A DNA stretch of 64,000 nt, from NCBI GenBank assembly GCA_001769385.1, contig MEPB01000052.1, forward strand, positions 1 through 64,000, in the 5' to 3' direction. The translations under genes were made by a program, and so were the position numbers. The stretch comes from Bacteroidetes bacterium RIFCSPLOWO2_12_FULL_35_15. Its GTDB lineage: Bacteria; Bacteroidota; Bacteroidia; 2-12-FULL-35-15. This document shows, piece after piece, positions 8,028 to 61,606 of this stretch (positions are counted from its first letter, which is position 1; each line of letters starts with the position of its first letter). The notes under the pieces were generated by a model, which saw only the letters and a list, made by a program, of their open reading frames with translations, was not told the origin of the DNA and ran no database searches.

Positions 8028-8099
8028 GGTTTCGTAGTTCAACGGATAGAATAGAAGTTTCCTAAACTTTTGATCCCAGTTCGATTCTGGGCGAAATCA
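8028..8099 (+). tRNA. tRNA-Arg (anticodon CCT)
   Basis: Folded by hand: acceptor GGTTTCG/CGAAATC, D-stem GTTC/GAAT, anticodon stem GAAGT/ACTTT with loop TTCCTAA, T-stem CCCAG/CTGGG. Confidence 0.93.
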
Positions 8100-8222: not shown

Positions 8223-9494
8223 CTATGTTTCAGGAGTGCTTTCCTTTTTTTGTGGATTGTTTTTTTCATTCAAAAACTTGATCACATCAACCTTTTTTTT
8301 GCGGGTCGTCTTTGCGTATATCATCGTTGTTTTTATTGTCCTGTGCCCCATTAAGCTGCTGATTGAAGCTATATCTACACCATGTTCAAGCGAATTAGTT
8401 GCAAAAGAATGACGTGATGAATGAAAACTCAGCTTCTTATTAATTCCAACAAGTTTGGCGATTGTCTTAAGATGATCGTTTGTTTTTTGGTTTGTTAACA
8501 TAGGCAAAACTAATCCAGTCTCTTTTCGATGCGATTCGAACCGGTGGAAAATTTCAATTGCAACATCAGTCATTGGGATTTCTATATAGTCCTTTGTTTT
8601 CGTTTGAAATAGGCTAATCCAATAGATGCCATCATTATCAATATTGACCATGCTTTGATTTAATTGAAAAGCATCTGAATATCTTAATCCTGTCGCACAG
8701 GCGAAAATATATGCATCACGTACTCTCATTAATGATTCCCTGCCATCTAAGGGATGGGTTCTTAATAACTCAACTTCATCATTAGTTAAAGAAACCCTGT
8801 TTGCTGGTTTGATAGTCTTCAGCCTAAAACTTAAAAATGGATTGTTAGGAATGATTTCTTTTCTATAAGCGGCATTTACAACGGATTTTATTTTTCGAAT
8901 ATATGTTGTACACGTATGGTAACAAACGCACTTTTTTGTTTTAGGGTTAGGTATTGTTAGTAAGAAATTTTCAAAACGCTCTAAAAATTTACCAGATAAT
9001 TCATTCATTTTTATACTTTGTAAGCCATACAGTTTTAAGAATCTATCTAAATGATTCTTTACTTTGGTATAATGTTTTATAACTCCTATTCCATATTCAT
9101 CTGGACGCAGTTTAATTTCATCAACATAGTGTTTGTAGTAGGTCATAAACTCCATTTCGGGATGAGTAGCTTTTTTATTATCATAAGCGTTTTTTATACT
9201 TTTAGCTGATAAAGGCTGCCCGGTTCTTTTTAAAGTTTCATAAATATGTCTTACTTTTTCTTCTACTTTTTGTAACTCATTATTCCGGGATGTGTTTATT
9301 TTTTTTGTATCGTTAAAACGCTCTTTTTGAAAATCCCAATCAGATTCATTAACTGATTTTAGTTTTAAGGAAATTAATGCCTTATCTCTTTTCAATAAAA
9401 TGCGAGCATAAACGGAACACTCACCGATGATTTTTCCTTTTTTCTTTTCGAGAAGAAATCGAACCGATACTGGTATGTTGTATAAAACCTCCAT
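8223..9494 (-). CDS. Tyrosine-type site-specific integrase (Bacteroidetes type)
   Basis: 'FACATGLRYSD', 'HSSRHSFATNSL', 'LMGHRTIKTTMIYAKT' (R...HxxR...H...Y). Confidence 0.95.
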   Translation of the reverse strand: MEVLYNIPVSVRFLLEKKKGKIIGECSVYARILLKRDKALISLKLKSVNESDWDFQKERFNDTKKINTSRNNELQKVEEKVRHIYETLKRTGQPLSAKSIKNAYDNKKATHPEMEFMTYYKHYVDEIKLRPDEYGIGVIKHYTKVKNHLDRFLKLYGLQSIKMNELSGKFLERFENFLLTIPNPKTKKCVCYHTCTTYIRKIKSVVNAAYRKEIIPNNPFLSFRLKTIKPANRVSLTNDEVELLRTHPLDGRESLMRVRDAYIFACATGLRYSDAFQLNQSMVNIDNDGIYWISLFQTKTKDYIEIPMTDVAIEIFHRFESHRKETGLVLPMLTNQKTNDHLKTIAKLVGINKKLSFHSSRHSFATNSLEHGVDIASISSLMGHRTIKTTMIYAKTTRKKKVDVIKFLNEKNNPQKKESTPET

Positions 9495-9908: not shown

Positions 9909-10940
9909 TTATTGTTTTTTTACTCTTTTAGAAATGCCATTGAGTATGGTTAGTAAATAATCGTTCTCGTTGGTATTAGCATCCTTCCACATTTTAAAAC
10001 CTGTGGGACTTTTTGTTGCACCAATTGAAAGATCTGCTTTGGCACCTGCATAATCGTTGATACAAAACTTTGAATATCCTCTTTCAAGGTAATATGGATA
10101 ATCATTGTAACCATCTAAACTATCACCTTCCAGTTCTATTGCTTTTGTAAAGTCCTCAATTGCTCCAGCATTATCTCCTTTGAATGATTTGCCAAGACCA
10201 CGGCTGTAGTAATAGTATCCATTACCTTGTATACCCATTGCATTGGGATATTGTTTTAAAATAGCAGCGAACATTTCAGTTGCTTTATTTTCACCACAAA
10301 ACTTCAATGGGTCTTCAGCAGCTTCCTTCAATAACCCATTAATTGCTTTCTGTGATAAACCTGGCTCTACTTCAGGTACTTCGTCAGCTTCAACTTTATT
10401 GGTTTGCTCGGTATCATACAAGTACCAATTAGCGATGTCGATAAGCTGCTCCTGATCTTCTCTATCAAAATCCATCAGGTTCTCATTCTCGATGCACTGC
10501 TCTATTGTTGTGTATTTACCGCTTTGGATGTCGTGTTGTAAATTTTCAAGTGCACAGATGAAATCTGTACTTTTCCAATCACCGTCTGCTTTTTGGACGT
10601 AGGTTCTCTTTTTAGATTTCTTATTAAGATCAACAGTAGCTATGTCAACGAGTTGCTGTTTATCTATTACATTACAATCTATAAAGTAGCGGTTCTCTTT
10701 GCATTCTTCAATGGTAGTATATGCGCCATCTTGGATACCACTTCTAATTTCTTCCAGCGCGAATATGTAGCACGGTTGGTTGCTCGCCTTAAGCCTCTTA
10801 CTAAGTGAAAGAAAGCTCTTGCCTTTCCAAGCGTCATCTCCTTCCGATACAACATCTTCTAAACTTTTGACTTTTGCGGCAGTCACCCTTTGCTGAGTTC
10901 GTATCTGATACTTGTCAGCATGAATTTGTTTCTTTTTCAT
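9909..10940 (-). CDS. Hypothetical protein with TPR-like C-terminal half
   Basis: 'YYYYSRGLGKSFKGDNAGAIEDFTKAIELEGDSLDGYNDYPYYLERGYSKFCINDYAGAKADLSIG'. Confidence 0.75.
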   Translation of the reverse strand: MKKKQIHADKYQIRTQQRVTAAKVKSLEDVVSEGDDAWKGKSFLSLSKRLKASNQPCYIFALEEIRSGIQDGAYTTIEECKENRYFIDCNVIDKQQLVDIATVDLNKKSKKRTYVQKADGDWKSTDFICALENLQHDIQSGKYTTIEQCIENENLMDFDREDQEQLIDIANWYLYDTEQTNKVEADEVPEVEPGLSQKAINGLLKEAAEDPLKFCGENKATEMFAAILKQYPNAMGIQGNGYYYYSRGLGKSFKGDNAGAIEDFTKAIELEGDSLDGYNDYPYYLERGYSKFCINDYAGAKADLSIGATKSPTGFKMWKDANTNENDYLLTILNGISKRVKKQ

Positions 10941-11045: not shown

Positions 11046-12011
11046 TTACCTTTTTACGCTATTCCTTCGGAATGAAGTTAAAAAAGAGCTTTCTTTTACA
11101 GGTATTTTTTGATCTTTAACTTTTTTGTTTATTACAAATACTTTGTACAACACCTCCCCGATTGGAGTAGCATCGCCTTTTTCGTCAAAACCTAAAAACA
11201 AAGTTGTTTCTCCTTTGTAATGAATTAATTGACCAAATTTCTCACAAAACTCTTCTAAAGATTTCGTCCATATTAAACATTGGGAGACCTGCTGTGAAGT
11301 ATCCTTTACCGCTGTGCTTTTTTTTGACTTAGTATTACCTCGTTCTACTTTGTTAACAATATCAAATATTTCTCGTAATATTTTAAATATTTCTTGTTTA
11401 TTAATCCTTCCGTTGGCAAGAGTAAGTGTCTCATCCCTGATTAGTTCCCCAAAGAAATTTTCAAAATTTATAGTTTCGCCTTTTCGTTTTACATTATTAT
11501 GCCATCCAATCCGATGCGGTATCGTTACTTTCTCCTCCACCTGCTTTTTTTGTTTAGGTTTATTTTGGGCGTCTGATATTGTGAGGGAGTTATTGTATTT
11601 CAAAAAAACATTTTTGTAATCGGAAACAAAAACATCAACTACTTTTTTATACTCATTACATTCAGCCGGGTATAGTATTGTTATTGAAGGGCCTAATTTC
11701 GTATTCTTTACTACTTCATTCATAATTGCAGGACTATTCTTTTCCAAGCATTTTGTTACCCCTTTTTCGAGTTGGAGAAAAATATTCCATTTTTCGGAAT
11801 TAGGAATATTACTAACGAGCAATTTTAATAATACATCATCCCATGCATCTCTAATTTCATTAATTGACTTAAATACATTTTCTATTGATGTTGCCTTTTC
11901 TTCATTTGTTCCTTCTGCTGAGTTAAGGATGTAATCTCTGACAAATGTTGGTTGTTGCAATGCGAACAGTTTGTTTTCCAACTTTTCAGCTATCTCAAAT
12001 ACTTCTTTCAT
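11046..12011 (-). CDS. Hypothetical protein
   Basis: 321-aa ORF. Confidence 0.7.
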   Translation of the reverse strand: MKEVFEIAEKLENKLFALQQPTFVRDYILNSAEGTNEEKATSIENVFKSINEIRDAWDDVLLKLLVSNIPNSEKWNIFLQLEKGVTKCLEKNSPAIMNEVVKNTKLGPSITILYPAECNEYKKVVDVFVSDYKNVFLKYNNSLTISDAQNKPKQKKQVEEKVTIPHRIGWHNNVKRKGETINFENFFGELIRDETLTLANGRINKQEIFKILREIFDIVNKVERGNTKSKKSTAVKDTSQQVSQCLIWTKSLEEFCEKFGQLIHYKGETTLFLGFDEKGDATPIGEVLYKVFVINKKVKDQKIPVKESSFLTSFRRNSVKR

Positions 12012-56617: not shown

Positions 56618-57973
56618 ATGAATCTGATCAGAAAATATAATGTTGCGGGTCCGCGATACACCAGTTATCCAACCGTTCCATATTGGGATGAAACACCTCC
56701 AACCATTGAACAATGGAAAGCAAGCGTAAAAAGATCATTTATTGAAACCAATGACAGCGATGGAATTTCTTTATACATCCATTTACCTTTTTGTGAAAGT
56801 TTATGCACGTATTGCGGATGCAACACACGAATCACTATCAATCATAATGTTGAAAAGCCATATTTAACAGCTGTTTTAAAAGAATGGGAATTGTATCTGA
56901 AGGTTTTTGAAGGAAAGCCACGCATCAAAGAAATTCATTTGGGTGGCGGTACTCCTACATTTTTCAAGCCGGAACATTTGAAAGAAATGATCGATGCTAT
57001 TTTAAAAGATGCAGAGGTTTGTGAGGATGCCGAATTTAGTTTTGAAGCACATCCGAAAAATACAACACCTGAACATTTAGAAACATTATATAGATTGGGC
57101 TTTAGACGATTAAGTCTGGGTGTTCAGGATTTCGATCCGAAAGTTCAGGAAATCGTAAATCGGATAGATCCATTTGAAACAGTCGAAAGAGTTGTAAAAA
57201 ATGCCCGTAAAATAGGATATACTTCTATCAATTTTGATTTGATCTATGGTTTGCCTTTGCAAACAAGAAATAGTGTTATTGATACCATCAATAAAGTAAA
57301 TCTTTTAAGGCCCGATCGTATTGCTTTCTACAGCTATGCACATGTGCCTTGGGTAAAGCCGGGTCAGCGGAAATTCACCGAAGCTGATCTGCCTGCTGAT
57401 GAAGAAAAACGTGCACTTTACGAAATTGGTAAGGCTATGTTTGCAGAAAATGGTTATGTTGAAATTGGCATGGATCATTTCTCCTTAACAAGTGATACAC
57501 TTTATAAATCAGCAGAAAAAGGGAAGTTGCATCGGAATTTCATGGGATACACGCACTCCTATACGCAGCTGATGGTTGGTTTAGGTGTTTCATCCATCAG
57601 CGACACATGGTATGCATACGGACAAAATGTTAAGAAAGTAGAAGAGTATTATGATCTGATAAATAAAGGGGAATTACCTGTTTTTAAAGGACATTTATTG
57701 AATGAAGAAGATCTGATCATACGCAGACATATCCTCAACATCATGTGCAAATTTGAAACATCCTGGGAAAAAAAAGAAATGCAATGTGAAGCGATCTATG
57801 AAGCTATTGAACGTCTGACAGAAATTGAAAATGATAAATTGATAGAGTTAACTCCATATCATTTGAAAGTGAACAAAGCCGGAATTCCTTTTATCAGAAA
57901 CATTTGTATGGCTTTTGATGCAAGGCTCTGGAGGAATTTACCACAATCGAAGATCTTTAGTTCAACGGTGTAA
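56618..57973 (+). CDS. hemN: Oxygen-independent coproporphyrinogen III oxidase
   Basis: 'NVAGPRYTSYPT', radical SAM 'CESLCTYCGCN', 'LGGGTPTF'. Confidence 0.96.
   Translation: MNLIRKYNVAGPRYTSYPTVPYWDETPPTIEQWKASVKRSFIETNDSDGISLYIHLPFCESLCTYCGCNTRITINHNVEKPYLTAVLKEWELYLKVFEGKPRIKEIHLGGGTPTFFKPEHLKEMIDAILKDAEVCEDAEFSFEAHPKNTTPEHLETLYRLGFRRLSLGVQDFDPKVQEIVNRIDPFETVERVVKNARKIGYTSINFDLIYGLPLQTRNSVIDTINKVNLLRPDRIAFYSYAHVPWVKPGQRKFTEADLPADEEKRALYEIGKAMFAENGYVEIGMDHFSLTSDTLYKSAEKGKLHRNFMGYTHSYTQLMVGLGVSSISDTWYAYGQNVKKVEEYYDLINKGELPVFKGHLLNEEDLIIRRHILNIMCKFETSWEKKEMQCEAIYEAIERLTEIENDKLIELTPYHLKVNKAGIPFIRNICMAFDARLWRNLPQSKIFSSTV
57896..57973 (+). repeat. hemN 3' end, copy 1
   Basis: Aligns to 58554-58632. 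Confidence 0.9.
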
Positions 57974-58051: not shown

Positions 58052-58483
58052 ATGGCAGCAGTAAATCCTTATTTAACTTTCAATGGAAATTGTGAAGAAG
58101 CATTTAATTTCTACAAATCTGTCTTTGGGGGCGAATTTCCTTATATAGGAAGATTCAAAGATATGCCCTCCGAACAACCAATTCCCGAGAGCGAAAAAGA
58201 AAAAATAATGCATGTTTCGTTGCCAATTGGAAAAGAAACTATTCTAATGGGTAGTGACAGTTCAAATGCATTTGGACAGGCGACCATTATAGGAAACAAT
58301 TTTTCTATTTCAGTCAATGCCGATAATGAGGAAGAAGCTACTAAACTCTTTAATGGTCTTTCTTCCGGTGGAAAAGTTACGATGCCTTTAAATAAAACAT
58401 TTTGGGGTGCATTGTTTGGTATGTTTACAGATAAATTCGGTATTAACTGGATGGTAAATTACGACTTCGACCAAAAAAAATAA
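58052..58483 (+). CDS. VOC/PhnB-like family protein
   Basis: 'VNPYLTFNGNCEEAFNFYKSVFGGEFPYIGRFKDMP', 'MFTDKFGINWMVNYD'. Confidence 0.9.
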   Translation: MAAVNPYLTFNGNCEEAFNFYKSVFGGEFPYIGRFKDMPSEQPIPESEKEKIMHVSLPIGKETILMGSDSSNAFGQATIIGNNFSISVNADNEEEATKLFNGLSSGGKVTMPLNKTFWGALFGMFTDKFGINWMVNYDFDQKK

Positions 58484-58553
58484 ACTTATTTTATTGGTTT
58501 TCAAAAAATTGACAAATTGCAATTTGGAAGGACCATGCAGAATTTTTTTTATT

Positions 58554-58632
58554 AGAAATATCTGCATGGCTTTTGATGAAAGACTTTGGAGGAATTTACC
58601 ACAATCGAAGATCTTTAGGTTCAACAGTGTAA
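58554..58632 (+). pseudogene. Orphan diverged copy of hemN 3' end
   Basis: 79 bp matching 57896-57973 with 7 substitutions and one 1-nt insertion. Confidence 0.9.
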
Positions 58633-58820
58633 TTATTTGAGTTCATATTTTTGTAATAAAATAAAGAACTTGCATTTGATTGAATAAACGAAACGTGTAG
58701 CGTTTATAAAGATGTTAGTGGTAATTTTATAAAAAAATATACGCACACAGCAACATAGAAAGAATTGGAAATAAAATTCACGAATAGTGTTTTCAAAATT
58801 GACGACTTTATTAAAAAAAA

Positions 58821-59429
58821 ATGAAACCAAAAACCGAAGACAAGCAACAATTATTAAGAATTTTTCCGACCGAAGATTGGAAAGAATTTAAGCTGGAATA
58901 CAAATCAAGATTTCGTTATGCAATTTCTAACTTCGGCAGAGTAATTAGTTACACCGACAAATTTGAAAACGGAAGGTTATTGAAGTGCGCTACAGTGGAC
59001 GGTTACAAAGCTTTTTATTATAAATTATTAGTAGGCAAAAAAACAGTAAATCGACACCTTTATATCCGAAATATTGTTGCAGAAAATTTTTTACCAAAAC
59101 CGTCCAAAGACCAAATTCATGTTTTACTCTTAGACAGAAACCGCAGTAATAACTGTTCTAACAACCTTAAATGGGCTACCAAAGAAGAAATGTACGAACA
59201 TATCAAAAAAAGTCCTATGGTAATTGAGGCCAAGAAAAAGCTTGTTGAACATAACATGCAAAGGAAATACAAATTGAACAGTAGCACAGTCAAAATAATA
59301 AAAAGGAAAATAATGAGTGTTAATCGCAAGACGAGAATGAAATTAATTGCGAGACAATATGGAATTAGTGAAATGCAATTATACCGAATAAAATCAGGTG
59401 AAAATTGGGGACACGTAACTGTTGACTAA
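58821..59429 (+). CDS. NUMOD4/HNH-like protein with C-terminal HTH (degenerate HNH)
   Basis: 'YAISNFGRVISY', 'IVAENFLPKPSKDQIHVLLLDRNRSNNCSNNLKWATKEEMYEH', 'IARQYGISEMQLYRIKSGENW'. Confidence 0.75.
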   Translation: MKPKTEDKQQLLRIFPTEDWKEFKLEYKSRFRYAISNFGRVISYTDKFENGRLLKCATVDGYKAFYYKLLVGKKTVNRHLYIRNIVAENFLPKPSKDQIHVLLLDRNRSNNCSNNLKWATKEEMYEHIKKSPMVIEAKKKLVEHNMQRKYKLNSSTVKIIKRKIMSVNRKTRMKLIARQYGISEMQLYRIKSGENWGHVTVD

Positions 59430-59467
59430 AATGACTCTGGTGTAACGACAAAGATAAAAAGAAAGAC

Positions 59468-59646
59468 TACCGCTAACACCACCTCCTAAATGCGGAGATA
59501 CTGCTAGTTGCAAATGTTTGTCACAGCGGTATAAATTTATTTATAAACATTTGCAGGAAGCAGTTGTGCTTTTAATTTATATTTACAGTAACGAATAACA
59601 GAGTGCAAGTAAATCCGCAATCTTTTAGCTTCGTTCGTTAGCGGTC
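59468..59646 (+). repeat. attC-like repeat copy A
   Basis: Ends TACCGCTAAC / GTTAGCGGTC; inner TGCGGA/TCCGCA and GCAAATGTTT/AAACATTTGC inverted pairs. Confidence 0.75.
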
Positions 59647-59687
59647 ATTGTAGAGCGGCACTATAAAAAATAACAGAAATTTGCCCA

Positions 59688-60248
59688 ATGGAAATATTGA
59701 AATTAACAACTAAAAGACTTAACATACGACACCTCGAATTAAAAGACCTATCTGACTTTTATGTTTATCGTTCAAATCCGGAAGTTGCAAAATATCAAGG
59801 CTTTGATATTATGACAAAGGAACAAGCAGAAGATTTCATAAAGTACAATGCAATGAGGACTTTTGGAAAAGCAGGAGAATGGGTTCAATACGGAATTGAA
59901 AATGTTGAAACTCAAAAACTAATTGGCGATTGTGCAATTAAATTTGACCAAAACGACACAAGAATTGCGGAAATTGGAATTACTATTTCACACCTTGAAC
60001 AACAAAAAGGGTACGCAAAAGAAGTTATGGGGGGCATTTTGATTTTTTTGTTTGAAATAAAAGAAATTCATCGGGTTGCAGAAACTGTGGACGCAGAAAA
60101 TATTGCATCAATTAACTTACTAAGAAGTATGGGTTTCAGACAAGAAGGACATTTTATTGAAAATATTTTCTTCAAAGGAAAATGGGGAAGTGAATATCAA
60201 TACGCAATGTTGAAACGAGAATGGGACGAAAGAACAACGAACCGCTAA
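59688..60248 (+). CDS. GNAT family N-acetyltransferase
   Basis: 'LTTKRLNIRHLELKDLSDFYVYRSNPEVAKYQGF', 'AEIGITISHLEQQKGYAKEV', 'NIASINLLRSMGFRQEG'. Confidence 0.9.
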   Translation: MEILKLTTKRLNIRHLELKDLSDFYVYRSNPEVAKYQGFDIMTKEQAEDFIKYNAMRTFGKAGEWVQYGIENVETQKLIGDCAIKFDQNDTRIAEIGITISHLEQQKGYAKEVMGGILIFLFEIKEIHRVAETVDAENIASINLLRSMGFRQEGHFIENIFFKGKWGSEYQYAMLKREWDERTTNR

Positions 60249-60417
60249 TATCACCCAAAATAAATGCGGAGCAACTGCAAGCTGCAAATTTTTTTCACAA
60301 CGGTATTAATTAATTTCTAAACATTTGCAGGGATCGGTTGTGCTTTTTTATATTTGCGGTAACGAACAGCTGAGTGCAAGTAAATCCGCAATCTTTTAGC
60401 TTCGTTCCTTAGCTACA
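60241..60417 (+). repeat. attC-like repeat copy B
   Basis: ACCGCTAAT ... CTTAGCTACA; same interior as copy A; overlaps the GNAT stop codon. Confidence 0.75.
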
Positions 60418-60423
60418 ATTATT

Positions 60424-60882
60424 ATGAAAAAGACTATATCCATTTTATTTTTTATTTCATTTTTAAGTTACGGACTGACAAACCAAACTATCTTAAAAAA
60501 TTATGAGATTGTTTTTAAATGCAAAACAGATGATAATAAATATAAAGACCCTATTGTTAGTTTATTTGAAATTAGCACTGATAAAAAAACATTAGTTAAA
60601 ACCTTTAGCAATACTTACAAAAACAAATTGCAGTTTGAATATCAAAAAGATTATTTAGTGAGTTTTGAAAAAGCTGGCTATATAAAAAAAGAAATATCAG
60701 TATCTACCAAAAACATTTCAAAAGAACGCTGGAACAAAGAATTTGCAAAATTGTTCTGTAATATTAACCTTTCGAAACAACCTAAAGATAGTATTGTTCA
60801 ACATTCTCGGCCAGTTTCAATAATTTCGTATTCTGACACTTTGGGTGATTTTGATATCAAATTTGATAAAATAAATAAATAA
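60424..60882 (+). CDS. Secreted hypothetical protein
   Basis: 152-aa ORF with signal peptide. Confidence 0.65.
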   Translation: MKKTISILFFISFLSYGLTNQTILKNYEIVFKCKTDDNKYKDPIVSLFEISTDKKTLVKTFSNTYKNKLQFEYQKDYLVSFEKAGYIKKEISVSTKNISKERWNKEFAKLFCNINLSKQPKDSIVQHSRPVSIISYSDTLGDFDIKFDKINK

Positions 60883-60883
60883 C

Positions 60884-61064
60884 TGTAGCTAACACCACCT
60901 CCTATAAATGCGGAGCAAGTGCTAGCTGCAAATGTTTGTCACAGCGGTATAAATTTATTTCTAAACATTTGCAATGAACTTTTGTGCTTTTAATTTACAT
61001 TTGTTCTGACGGAAAGTGAAGTGCAATTAATTACACAATCTTTTAGCTTCATTCGTTGGCGTCA
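60884..61064 (+). repeat. attC-like repeat copy C
   Basis: TGTAGCTAAC ... GTTGGCGTCA; same interior as copies A and B. Confidence 0.75.
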
Positions 61065-61108
61065 CCTTGAGAAACGACAAACAATCTAAATTTAAACAGA
61101 TAAACAAT

Positions 61109-61606
61109 ATGGCATCGAACGTACCTGTAACAAGACAAATTGCATGGGTATCTTTAATTCCGCAATTGTTTGCAATGGGTCTAATAATATTTATATTCTA
61201 CATGCTAAAATTTGAAGATCCGCTTCTTTTTGGTACATGGTCTTATTTAATTATGTTTTTAATTCTTAGGAAATTAGTTGCAAAAGATCATAGACAAGGA
61301 ATGAAATTAGTAAAACAAGAAAAATTTATTGAAGCAATTCCTTTATTTGAAAAGAGTATTGCATATTTTACAAAAAATAGCTGGGTGGACAAATATCGTT
61401 ATTTAACAATTTTGAGTGCATCTAAAATGACTTATAAGGAAATGGGGTTATGCAACATTGCATTTTGTTATAGTCAGACAAATAATGGACAGAAAGCCAA
61501 AGAATACTACGAACTCACCTTGACTGAATTTCCCAAAAACGGACTAGCAAAAGCAGGACTGAATATGATAAACTCAATCGGACAAACAAGACAAACTGAA
61601 ACCTAG
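61109..61606 (+). CDS. Membrane protein with TPR-like C-terminus
   Basis: ATG start at 61109; TM segments then 'EAIPLFEKSIAYF...GLCNIAFCYSQTNNGQKAKEYYELTLTEFP'. Confidence 0.7.
   Translation: MASNVPVTRQIAWVSLIPQLFAMGLIIFIFYMLKFEDPLLFGTWSYLIMFLILRKLVAKDHRQGMKLVKQEKFIEAIPLFEKSIAYFTKNSWVDKYRYLTILSASKMTYKEMGLCNIAFCYSQTNNGQKAKEYYELTLTEFPKNGLAKAGLNMINSIGQTRQTET

Follow-up and report, generated by a model that had tools for sequence, protein, structure and literature searches.

A putative Bacteroidota integron-type cassette system with a tyrosine recombinase outside the canonical integron integrases

An array consisting of an attI-like site, three cassettes and three attC-like sites in a genome of the Bacteroidota was assigned, with a probability of about 0.86, to an integron-type system that is found throughout the phylum and is associated with a tyrosine recombinase encoded upstream. 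Judged by its sequence features the system is an integron variant, integron-like in its deduced recombination and operation, with an integrase lacking the insertion that is used to define integron integrases. The array was found in a window of 64,000 nucleotides, by which the whole stretch of DNA analyzed is meant (contig MEPB01000052.1 of Bacteroidetes bacterium RIFCSPLOWO2_12_FULL_35_15, positions 1 to 64,000).

The array in the window

Three structured repeats proposed as attC-like sites by a first-pass annotation of the window were found at their positions and are alike, with a mean column identity of 86% (Table 1). The two exact complementarities that it had read between cassette starts and the R'' ends of their own sites were both present, the single mismatch between GTTAGTGGTA (58714) and TACCGCTAAC was confirmed, and the R' of the second copy is irregular, as described. 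The GTTA boundary at 58714 exists as well, but the annotation had overlooked that it forms the end of an attI-like site. Folding of the first copy (site A), suggested as a check, was far better than that of shuffled sequences for both strands (z about -5). The Rfam search of the window returned one tRNA and nothing else.

The open reading frame of cassette 2 has its stop codon inside the R'' of its own attC, and the 152-aa protein of cassette 3 matched no Pfam family. The cassettes are single-gene units as proposed, but the TPR gene at 61067-61606, which had been counted as further cargo and was considered as a fourth cassette, was rejected. It is probably not a cassette, since it follows the last attC and is not itself followed by an attC that matches it; from site C to the contig end there is no complement of at least 8 nt to GTTGGCGT. 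No integrase or integrase remnant was found near the array when the window was searched with 51 integrases using tblastn. The earlier statement that an integrase is missing is therefore true of the surroundings of the array, but another contig of the same genome encodes one (see below).

Two further observations were made in the window. The 3' end of a hemN-like gene (57882-57960) is duplicated at 58540-58618 (89%), and the two copies flank a glyoxalase-like gene (58052-58483), which abuts the attI of the array and looks as if it had been inserted together with the copy of the hemN-like gene end. At a distance from the array, a tRNA gene (8028-8099) adjoins a tyrosine recombinase (8280-8789, in a frame of 423 aa); the pair probably marks a different kind of integrative element.

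Table 1. Features of the window array and tet(X) loci used for comparison
Feature	Position or locus	Strand	Description
attI-like site	58682..58717	+	GAATAAACG-AAACGTGTAG-CGTTTATAAAGAT^GTTA, imperfect inverted repeat; its end adjoins the putative crossover G^TT at 58714/58715
Cassette 1 (first after attI)	58715..59637	+	NUMOD4/HNH-like gene; start GTTAGTGGTA and own R'' TACCGCTAAC 9/10 complementary
Cassette 1 ORF (202 aa)	58821..59429	+	NUMOD4 motif (Pfam, E=7.6e-7) and weak HNH_3
attC-like site A	59468..59646	+	R'' TACCGCTAAC, R' GTTAGCGGT
Cassette 2	59638..60408	+	GNAT acetyltransferase; start TTAGCGGT exactly complements own R'' ACCGCTAA
Cassette 2 ORF (186 aa, GNAT)	59688..60248	+	Acetyltransf_3 (Pfam, E=7e-21)
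attC-like site B	60241..60417	+	R' CTTA, not GTTA
Cassette 3	60409..61055	+	152-aa protein; start TTAGCTACA complements own R'' TGTAGCTAA exactly over 9 nt
Cassette 3 ORF	60424..60882	+	
attC-like site C (last of the array)	60884..61064	+	R' GTTGGCGTC
tet(X) loci	L264, L265, L268 (Acinetobacter plasmids); L266 (Empedobacter); L267 (Myroides)		tet(X3), tet(X5), tet(X2)

attC copies and the boundary rule in the source genome

The source genome (5.39 Mb in 110 contigs, 99.4% complete) was searched for further copies of the repeat. From 86 candidates at least 40 scored copies were obtained, clustered in arrays on contigs C84, C23, C80, C70, C52 and others, and the total for the genome exceeds 45; the units of these arrays are nearly all single-ORF and on one strand. 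Because of this number of copies in one-strand arrays the repeats are not attributed to chance. Many contigs terminate within an attC copy, and the arrays were thus broken by the assembly. Rather than occurring in both orientations and unlinked to genes, the copies have one orientation per array and follow gene boundaries.

In an integron cassette the bases after G^TT and the R'' of its own attC derive from one circle, and for this reason the start of a cassette complements its own R''. An exact complementarity of 5 nt between start and own R'' was found for 35 of the 47 adjacent pairs, compared with a mean of 2.5 and a maximum of 8 in 1000 shuffled pairings. As a same-repeat control the ends of a repeat, each part of a different cassette, were compared with one another, and 7 of 42 matched. 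The exceptions to the rule seem to be mostly long units that have lost an inner site.

The longest ORF lies on the attC strand in 41 of 42 cassette units, and the median unit measures 665 nt; mostly single-ORF cassettes in one orientation are among the features by which classical integrons are recognized. The cassettes carry varied cargo (GNAT, macro domain, TPR, NUMOD4, HigBA), the majority of it having no Pfam family. Across the integrase loci described below, the attC length between AAC and GTT ranged from 60 to 188 nt with a mode of 117-119 nt (32 sites with both ends defined). The window sites (177-181 nt) are long, as had been remarked, relative to classical attC (about 57-141 nt), yet they fall inside this range. 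The sites are recurrently asymmetric, the spacer from the L stem to GTT being usually 3-4 nt longer than the spacer after AAC. For 30 attC sites of the genus 95.6% of the cells pair and 26 two-sided changes were counted; none of 500 shuffles reached as high a value, and structures slid along the alignment gave at most 8 two-sided changes. Both the folding and the covariation are consistent with a folded attC bottom strand as the substrate that would be recombined.

Some cassettes recur. Two arrays share cassettes that measure about 280 nt, are 89-98% alike and gave no ORF of at least 50 codons (L033 from 8384; L034, minus strand, at 11168 and 11615). Tandem cassettes that are 100% identical were found in L031 (3629-5443 and 5443-7126) and in L033 (3703-5283), with 745, 681 and 629 nt compared.

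Integrase loci and attI

The top match to the integron integrase model TIGR02249 in the source genome, below the cut-off, is a tyrosine recombinase of 547 aa on contig C93 (L062:1450-3093). Directly downstream of it, on its own strand, come a palindrome-rich stretch with attI, GTTACGCGC, HigB-HigA and an attC with R'' GCGCGTAAC; the cassette start GTTACGCGC matches the R'' GCGCGTAAC of its own attC, and the contig end cuts through this first attC. HigBA-type toxin-antitoxin cargo stabilizes arrays in other integrons; here the HigB-HigA pair (L062 670-1403) is the first cassette after the integrase.

The order integrase, attI, cassette was found with different first cassettes in G034, G023 and G031, as well as in G128 and G278, which belong to other families. 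Cassettes that obey the rule are also preceded by sister integrases of a shorter form (about 370-390 aa, with one N-terminal repeat; L102-L105, L108). The integrase is always directly upstream of attI and on the strand of the cassettes, and its catalytic residues R, K, H/R, H and Y are conserved. At one locus (L116 8900-10280, G018:C25) the integrase and a palindrome-bearing stretch are followed by a second tyrosine recombinase instead of a cassette.

Relatives of the integrase in named genomes numbered 469, and the records of the best 80 of these 469 nearly all give Bacteroidota as the phylum (Cytophagales, Bacteroidales, Sphingobacteriales, Flavobacteriales, Saprospiraceae). A scripted scan of the named loci was performed using those with at least 600 nt downstream (n=46) and a 9-nt rule for a cassette. 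Upstream and shuffled sequences were used as controls (n=358), the reverse complement having been dropped because the rule is symmetric under it. An attI with at least one rule-obeying cassette was obtained for 25/46 loci versus 20/358 controls, two cassettes for 16/46 (controls 2/358) and three or more for 8/46 (controls 1/358), the longest chain having up to six cassettes (Arundinibacter roseus). For the remaining 21/46 loci no rule match was obtained, in many cases owing to an early contig end; the available sequence is shorter than 1.5 kb on the downstream side of 35/65 loci and on the upstream side of 8/65. Within the genus an integrase (long or short) and this attC type occur together in 11/36 genomes with 9.4 expected, which is no clear co-occurrence, although many of these genomes are incomplete drafts and their attC types differ.

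Across loci attI is typically an inverted repeat, e.g., TATATACGCAA..TTGCGTATATAC, that ends about 7 nt before G^TT. It adjoins the integrase gene and the first cassette is inserted there, which is again a defining feature of classical integrons. In the window GAATAAACGAAACGTGTAGCGTTTATAAAGAT precedes GTTAGTGG at 58714. The 17-mer CGTTTATAAAGATGTTA of this site occurs once in the window (0.04 expected), and among the 268 fetched loci its right arm CGTTTATANAGATGTT was found only in the window and in the attI of the complete loci L163, L168, L170 and L183, where attI stands after an integrase in each case. As the right arm is common to sites that follow an integrase, the window array is taken to begin at an attI of its own. 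An attI-like stretch was also observed inside an array (L034, C80, minus strand); along 103 nt it has 82.5% identity with the L113 attI. The 1016-nt unit that contains it begins near 9983 in reverse-strand numbering, and consecutive related cassettes, each about 285 nt long, follow it immediately.

Natural breakpoints and tet(X)

The first-pass annotation had asked where gain and loss boundaries lie in related genomes; according to the sequence comparisons they fall at G^TT. The sequences of G031 and G034 are identical at 703 of 703 nt across the integrase and attI up to GTTA, beyond which identity is 28%.

The C-terminal 238 residues of the integrase (310-547) were found by tblastn at 66.8% identity on plasmids of Acinetobacter. 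The truncated gene concerned is annotated there as xerD or TnpF and stands ahead of tet(X3) and tet(X5), with an attI ending in G^TTATGTGCC between it and tet(X). On plasmids of Empedobacter and Myroides the homology to the tet(X) unit begins exactly at G^TTATGTGCC, yet behind attC ends: the 60 nt upstream of this point are 30% (Empedobacter) and 22% (Myroides) identical to the Acinetobacter unit, whereas the 200 nt downstream are 93% and 100% identical, respectively. The tet(X2) unit of Myroides ends in GGCACATAAC, an exact 10-nt complement of its own start, and has a full attC with another cassette behind it. The tet(X3) units of Empedobacter and Acinetobacter have a differing R'' (GGCTACTAAC) and may therefore be a fusion. 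Based on these boundaries the tigecycline-resistance gene tet(X) is identified as a cassette of the Bacteroidota integron-like system, and the Acinetobacter 'xerD' as a truncated integrase of the C93-type family together with its attI.

Relationship of the integrase and alternative explanations

The classification of the integrase was based on alignments, a structure model and trees. In the alignment to the IntI of Vibrio cholerae (2a3v) about 43 residues are absent at I2, query positions 445-470 standing opposite 178-246 of 2a3v. The alignment of the integrase family to TIGR02249 breaks at the same position (profile 178/239), and seven family members scored 171-226 bits, under the curated IntI cut-off of 265 bits. 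The AlphaFold2 model of the integrase (pLDDT 83, pTM 0.48) has no helix at the I2 position; its closest solved structure is IntI 2a3v, followed by XerA. In the trees canonical IntI form one clade (support 100), with the integrase family outside. These were two quick trees that differ in detail, and IntI and the integrase family may or may not share an integron ancestor. The alignments and trees indicate that the integrase lacks the I2 insertion specific to IntI and falls outside the IntI clade.

These results bear on the explanation that the window array is an ordinary CALIN. The array would then be what remains of a classical integron, its canonical IntI either having disappeared or being encoded in another place, and the 547-aa recombinase would be a bystander. 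The sites do have classical R''/R' logic, no integrase is local to the window array, IntI is the best structural match of the recombinase, and 105 of the 396 phylum genomes have a canonical IntI above the cut-off. Within the class, however, this phylum sample contained it only in G173, and the source genome has none above the TIGR02249 cut-off. Furthermore, dozens of genomes have the non-canonical integrase directly ahead of attI and of cassettes that obey the rule, and among the fetched loci the right arm of the window attI recurs only at attI sites after non-canonical integrases. We consider the explanation improbable. Between the CALIN-like array and the undescribed integron relative that had been offered as readings, the latter fits better because the rule holds genome-wide and complete loci exist on C93 and in many Bacteroidota.

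It is somewhat less probable still that the cassettes are real but the recombinase merely inserts itself at attI, e.g., as a satellite element, while XerCD or another enzyme moves the cassettes. This explanation is favored by the inverted repeat of attI, which resembles a dif/Xer site, and by the XerD models, which align to the integrase without a gap or break. Against it, the recombinase without exception has attI immediately downstream of it and shares its strand. In addition, housekeeping Xer are separate from both IntI and the integrase family (support 99), and the loci of housekeeping type have no comparable array (2 stray rule matches in 29). Dispersed palindromic repeats (REP- or MITE-like) that are intergenic by chance would account for many similar structured copies, but the end complementarity of each cassette, the single orientation, the attI and the exact G^TT breakpoints would be unexpected, which makes them the least probable explanation.

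Proposed mechanism

In the integron-type reading preferred here the integrase would be encoded upstream of attI on the strand of the cassettes. Since the integrase of the source genome is on C93, this 547-aa enzyme would act on the window array in trans. The complementarity of start and R'' is the mark of a circular cassette intermediate. The integrase may cut the folded single-stranded attC, probably on the bottom strand, at G^TT, and the cut attC would be joined to the double-stranded attI, so that new cassettes enter first in the array.

The N-terminal region of the long-form integrases contains three b-b-a-b-b-a repeats. HARP (PF07443) was matched by 25 of 33 N-terminal regions (best E 2.2e-8; E 0.37 only for the first member), while the Pfam search found no HARP in the short sister integrases. 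In the fold search the N-terminal region had no match with E <0.001, and single-repeat matches to XPB and MotA were not significant. As the annealing helicase SMARCAL1 also has HARP, the HARP-related repeats are, by way of a guess, plausible binders of folded DNA. Because the I2 helix, with which IntI grips extrahelical bases, is missing, these repeats, together with the conserved asymmetric attC spacer of 3-4 nt, may supply recognition and polarity.

If the integrase works in this way, the I2 helix is not the sole solution. The system would add a cassette platform in the Bacteroidota and would explain where the tet(X) units on Acinetobacter plasmids came from and by what mechanism. For a wider proposition we would give even odds: that this is a second type of integron, independent or ancestral, in which folded single-stranded sites are recombined without I2 by means of HARP-like structure-binding repeats, and that it was the source platform of tet(X).

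Comparison with known systems

CALIN are clusters of attC sites without an integrase. With three sites and no neighboring integrase the window array falls under this term (at least two attC); it differs in that it keeps an attI-like site and that its likely integrase, which is not an IntI, is elsewhere in the genome. Xer recombinases (XerA/XerD; NF040815) are similar in the length of the catalytic domain and in their continuous alignment, but housekeeping Xer form a separate clade without attI/attC arrays. Treponema chromosomal integrons carry canonical IntI. Their attC sites measure 63-132 nt (PMC3607928).

The ISCR2-xerD-tet(X3) units of Acinetobacter share with the system the truncated family integrase with its attI and the attached tet(X3) cassette; the difference is that they had been described only as ISCR2-borne. 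One such unit was named xerD-tet(X3)-res-orf1-ISVsa3 (PMC7494873). In the parts of the open-access tet(X) literature that were consulted the term attC is absent and no integron or cassette description was found.

Integron integrases are held to owe their capacity for single-strand recombination to the acquired I2 helix (PMC7790495). They are defined by this additional domain (PMC9668308), and surveys that rely on it therefore miss the Bacteroidota system. In a large survey Salinibacter ruber provided the complete integron of the Bacteroidetes (PMC9024848). No description of the system was found in the open-access integron and tet(X) literature that was searched.

With classical integrons the system shares the attI next to the integrase, the cassette arrays, the R'' and R' derived from one circular cassette, the folded attC and the crossover at G^TT. 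It differs from them in an integrase without I2, with HARP-related N-terminal repeats and a position outside the IntI clade, in an attI that is an inverted repeat, and in some attC of 180-206 nt overall.
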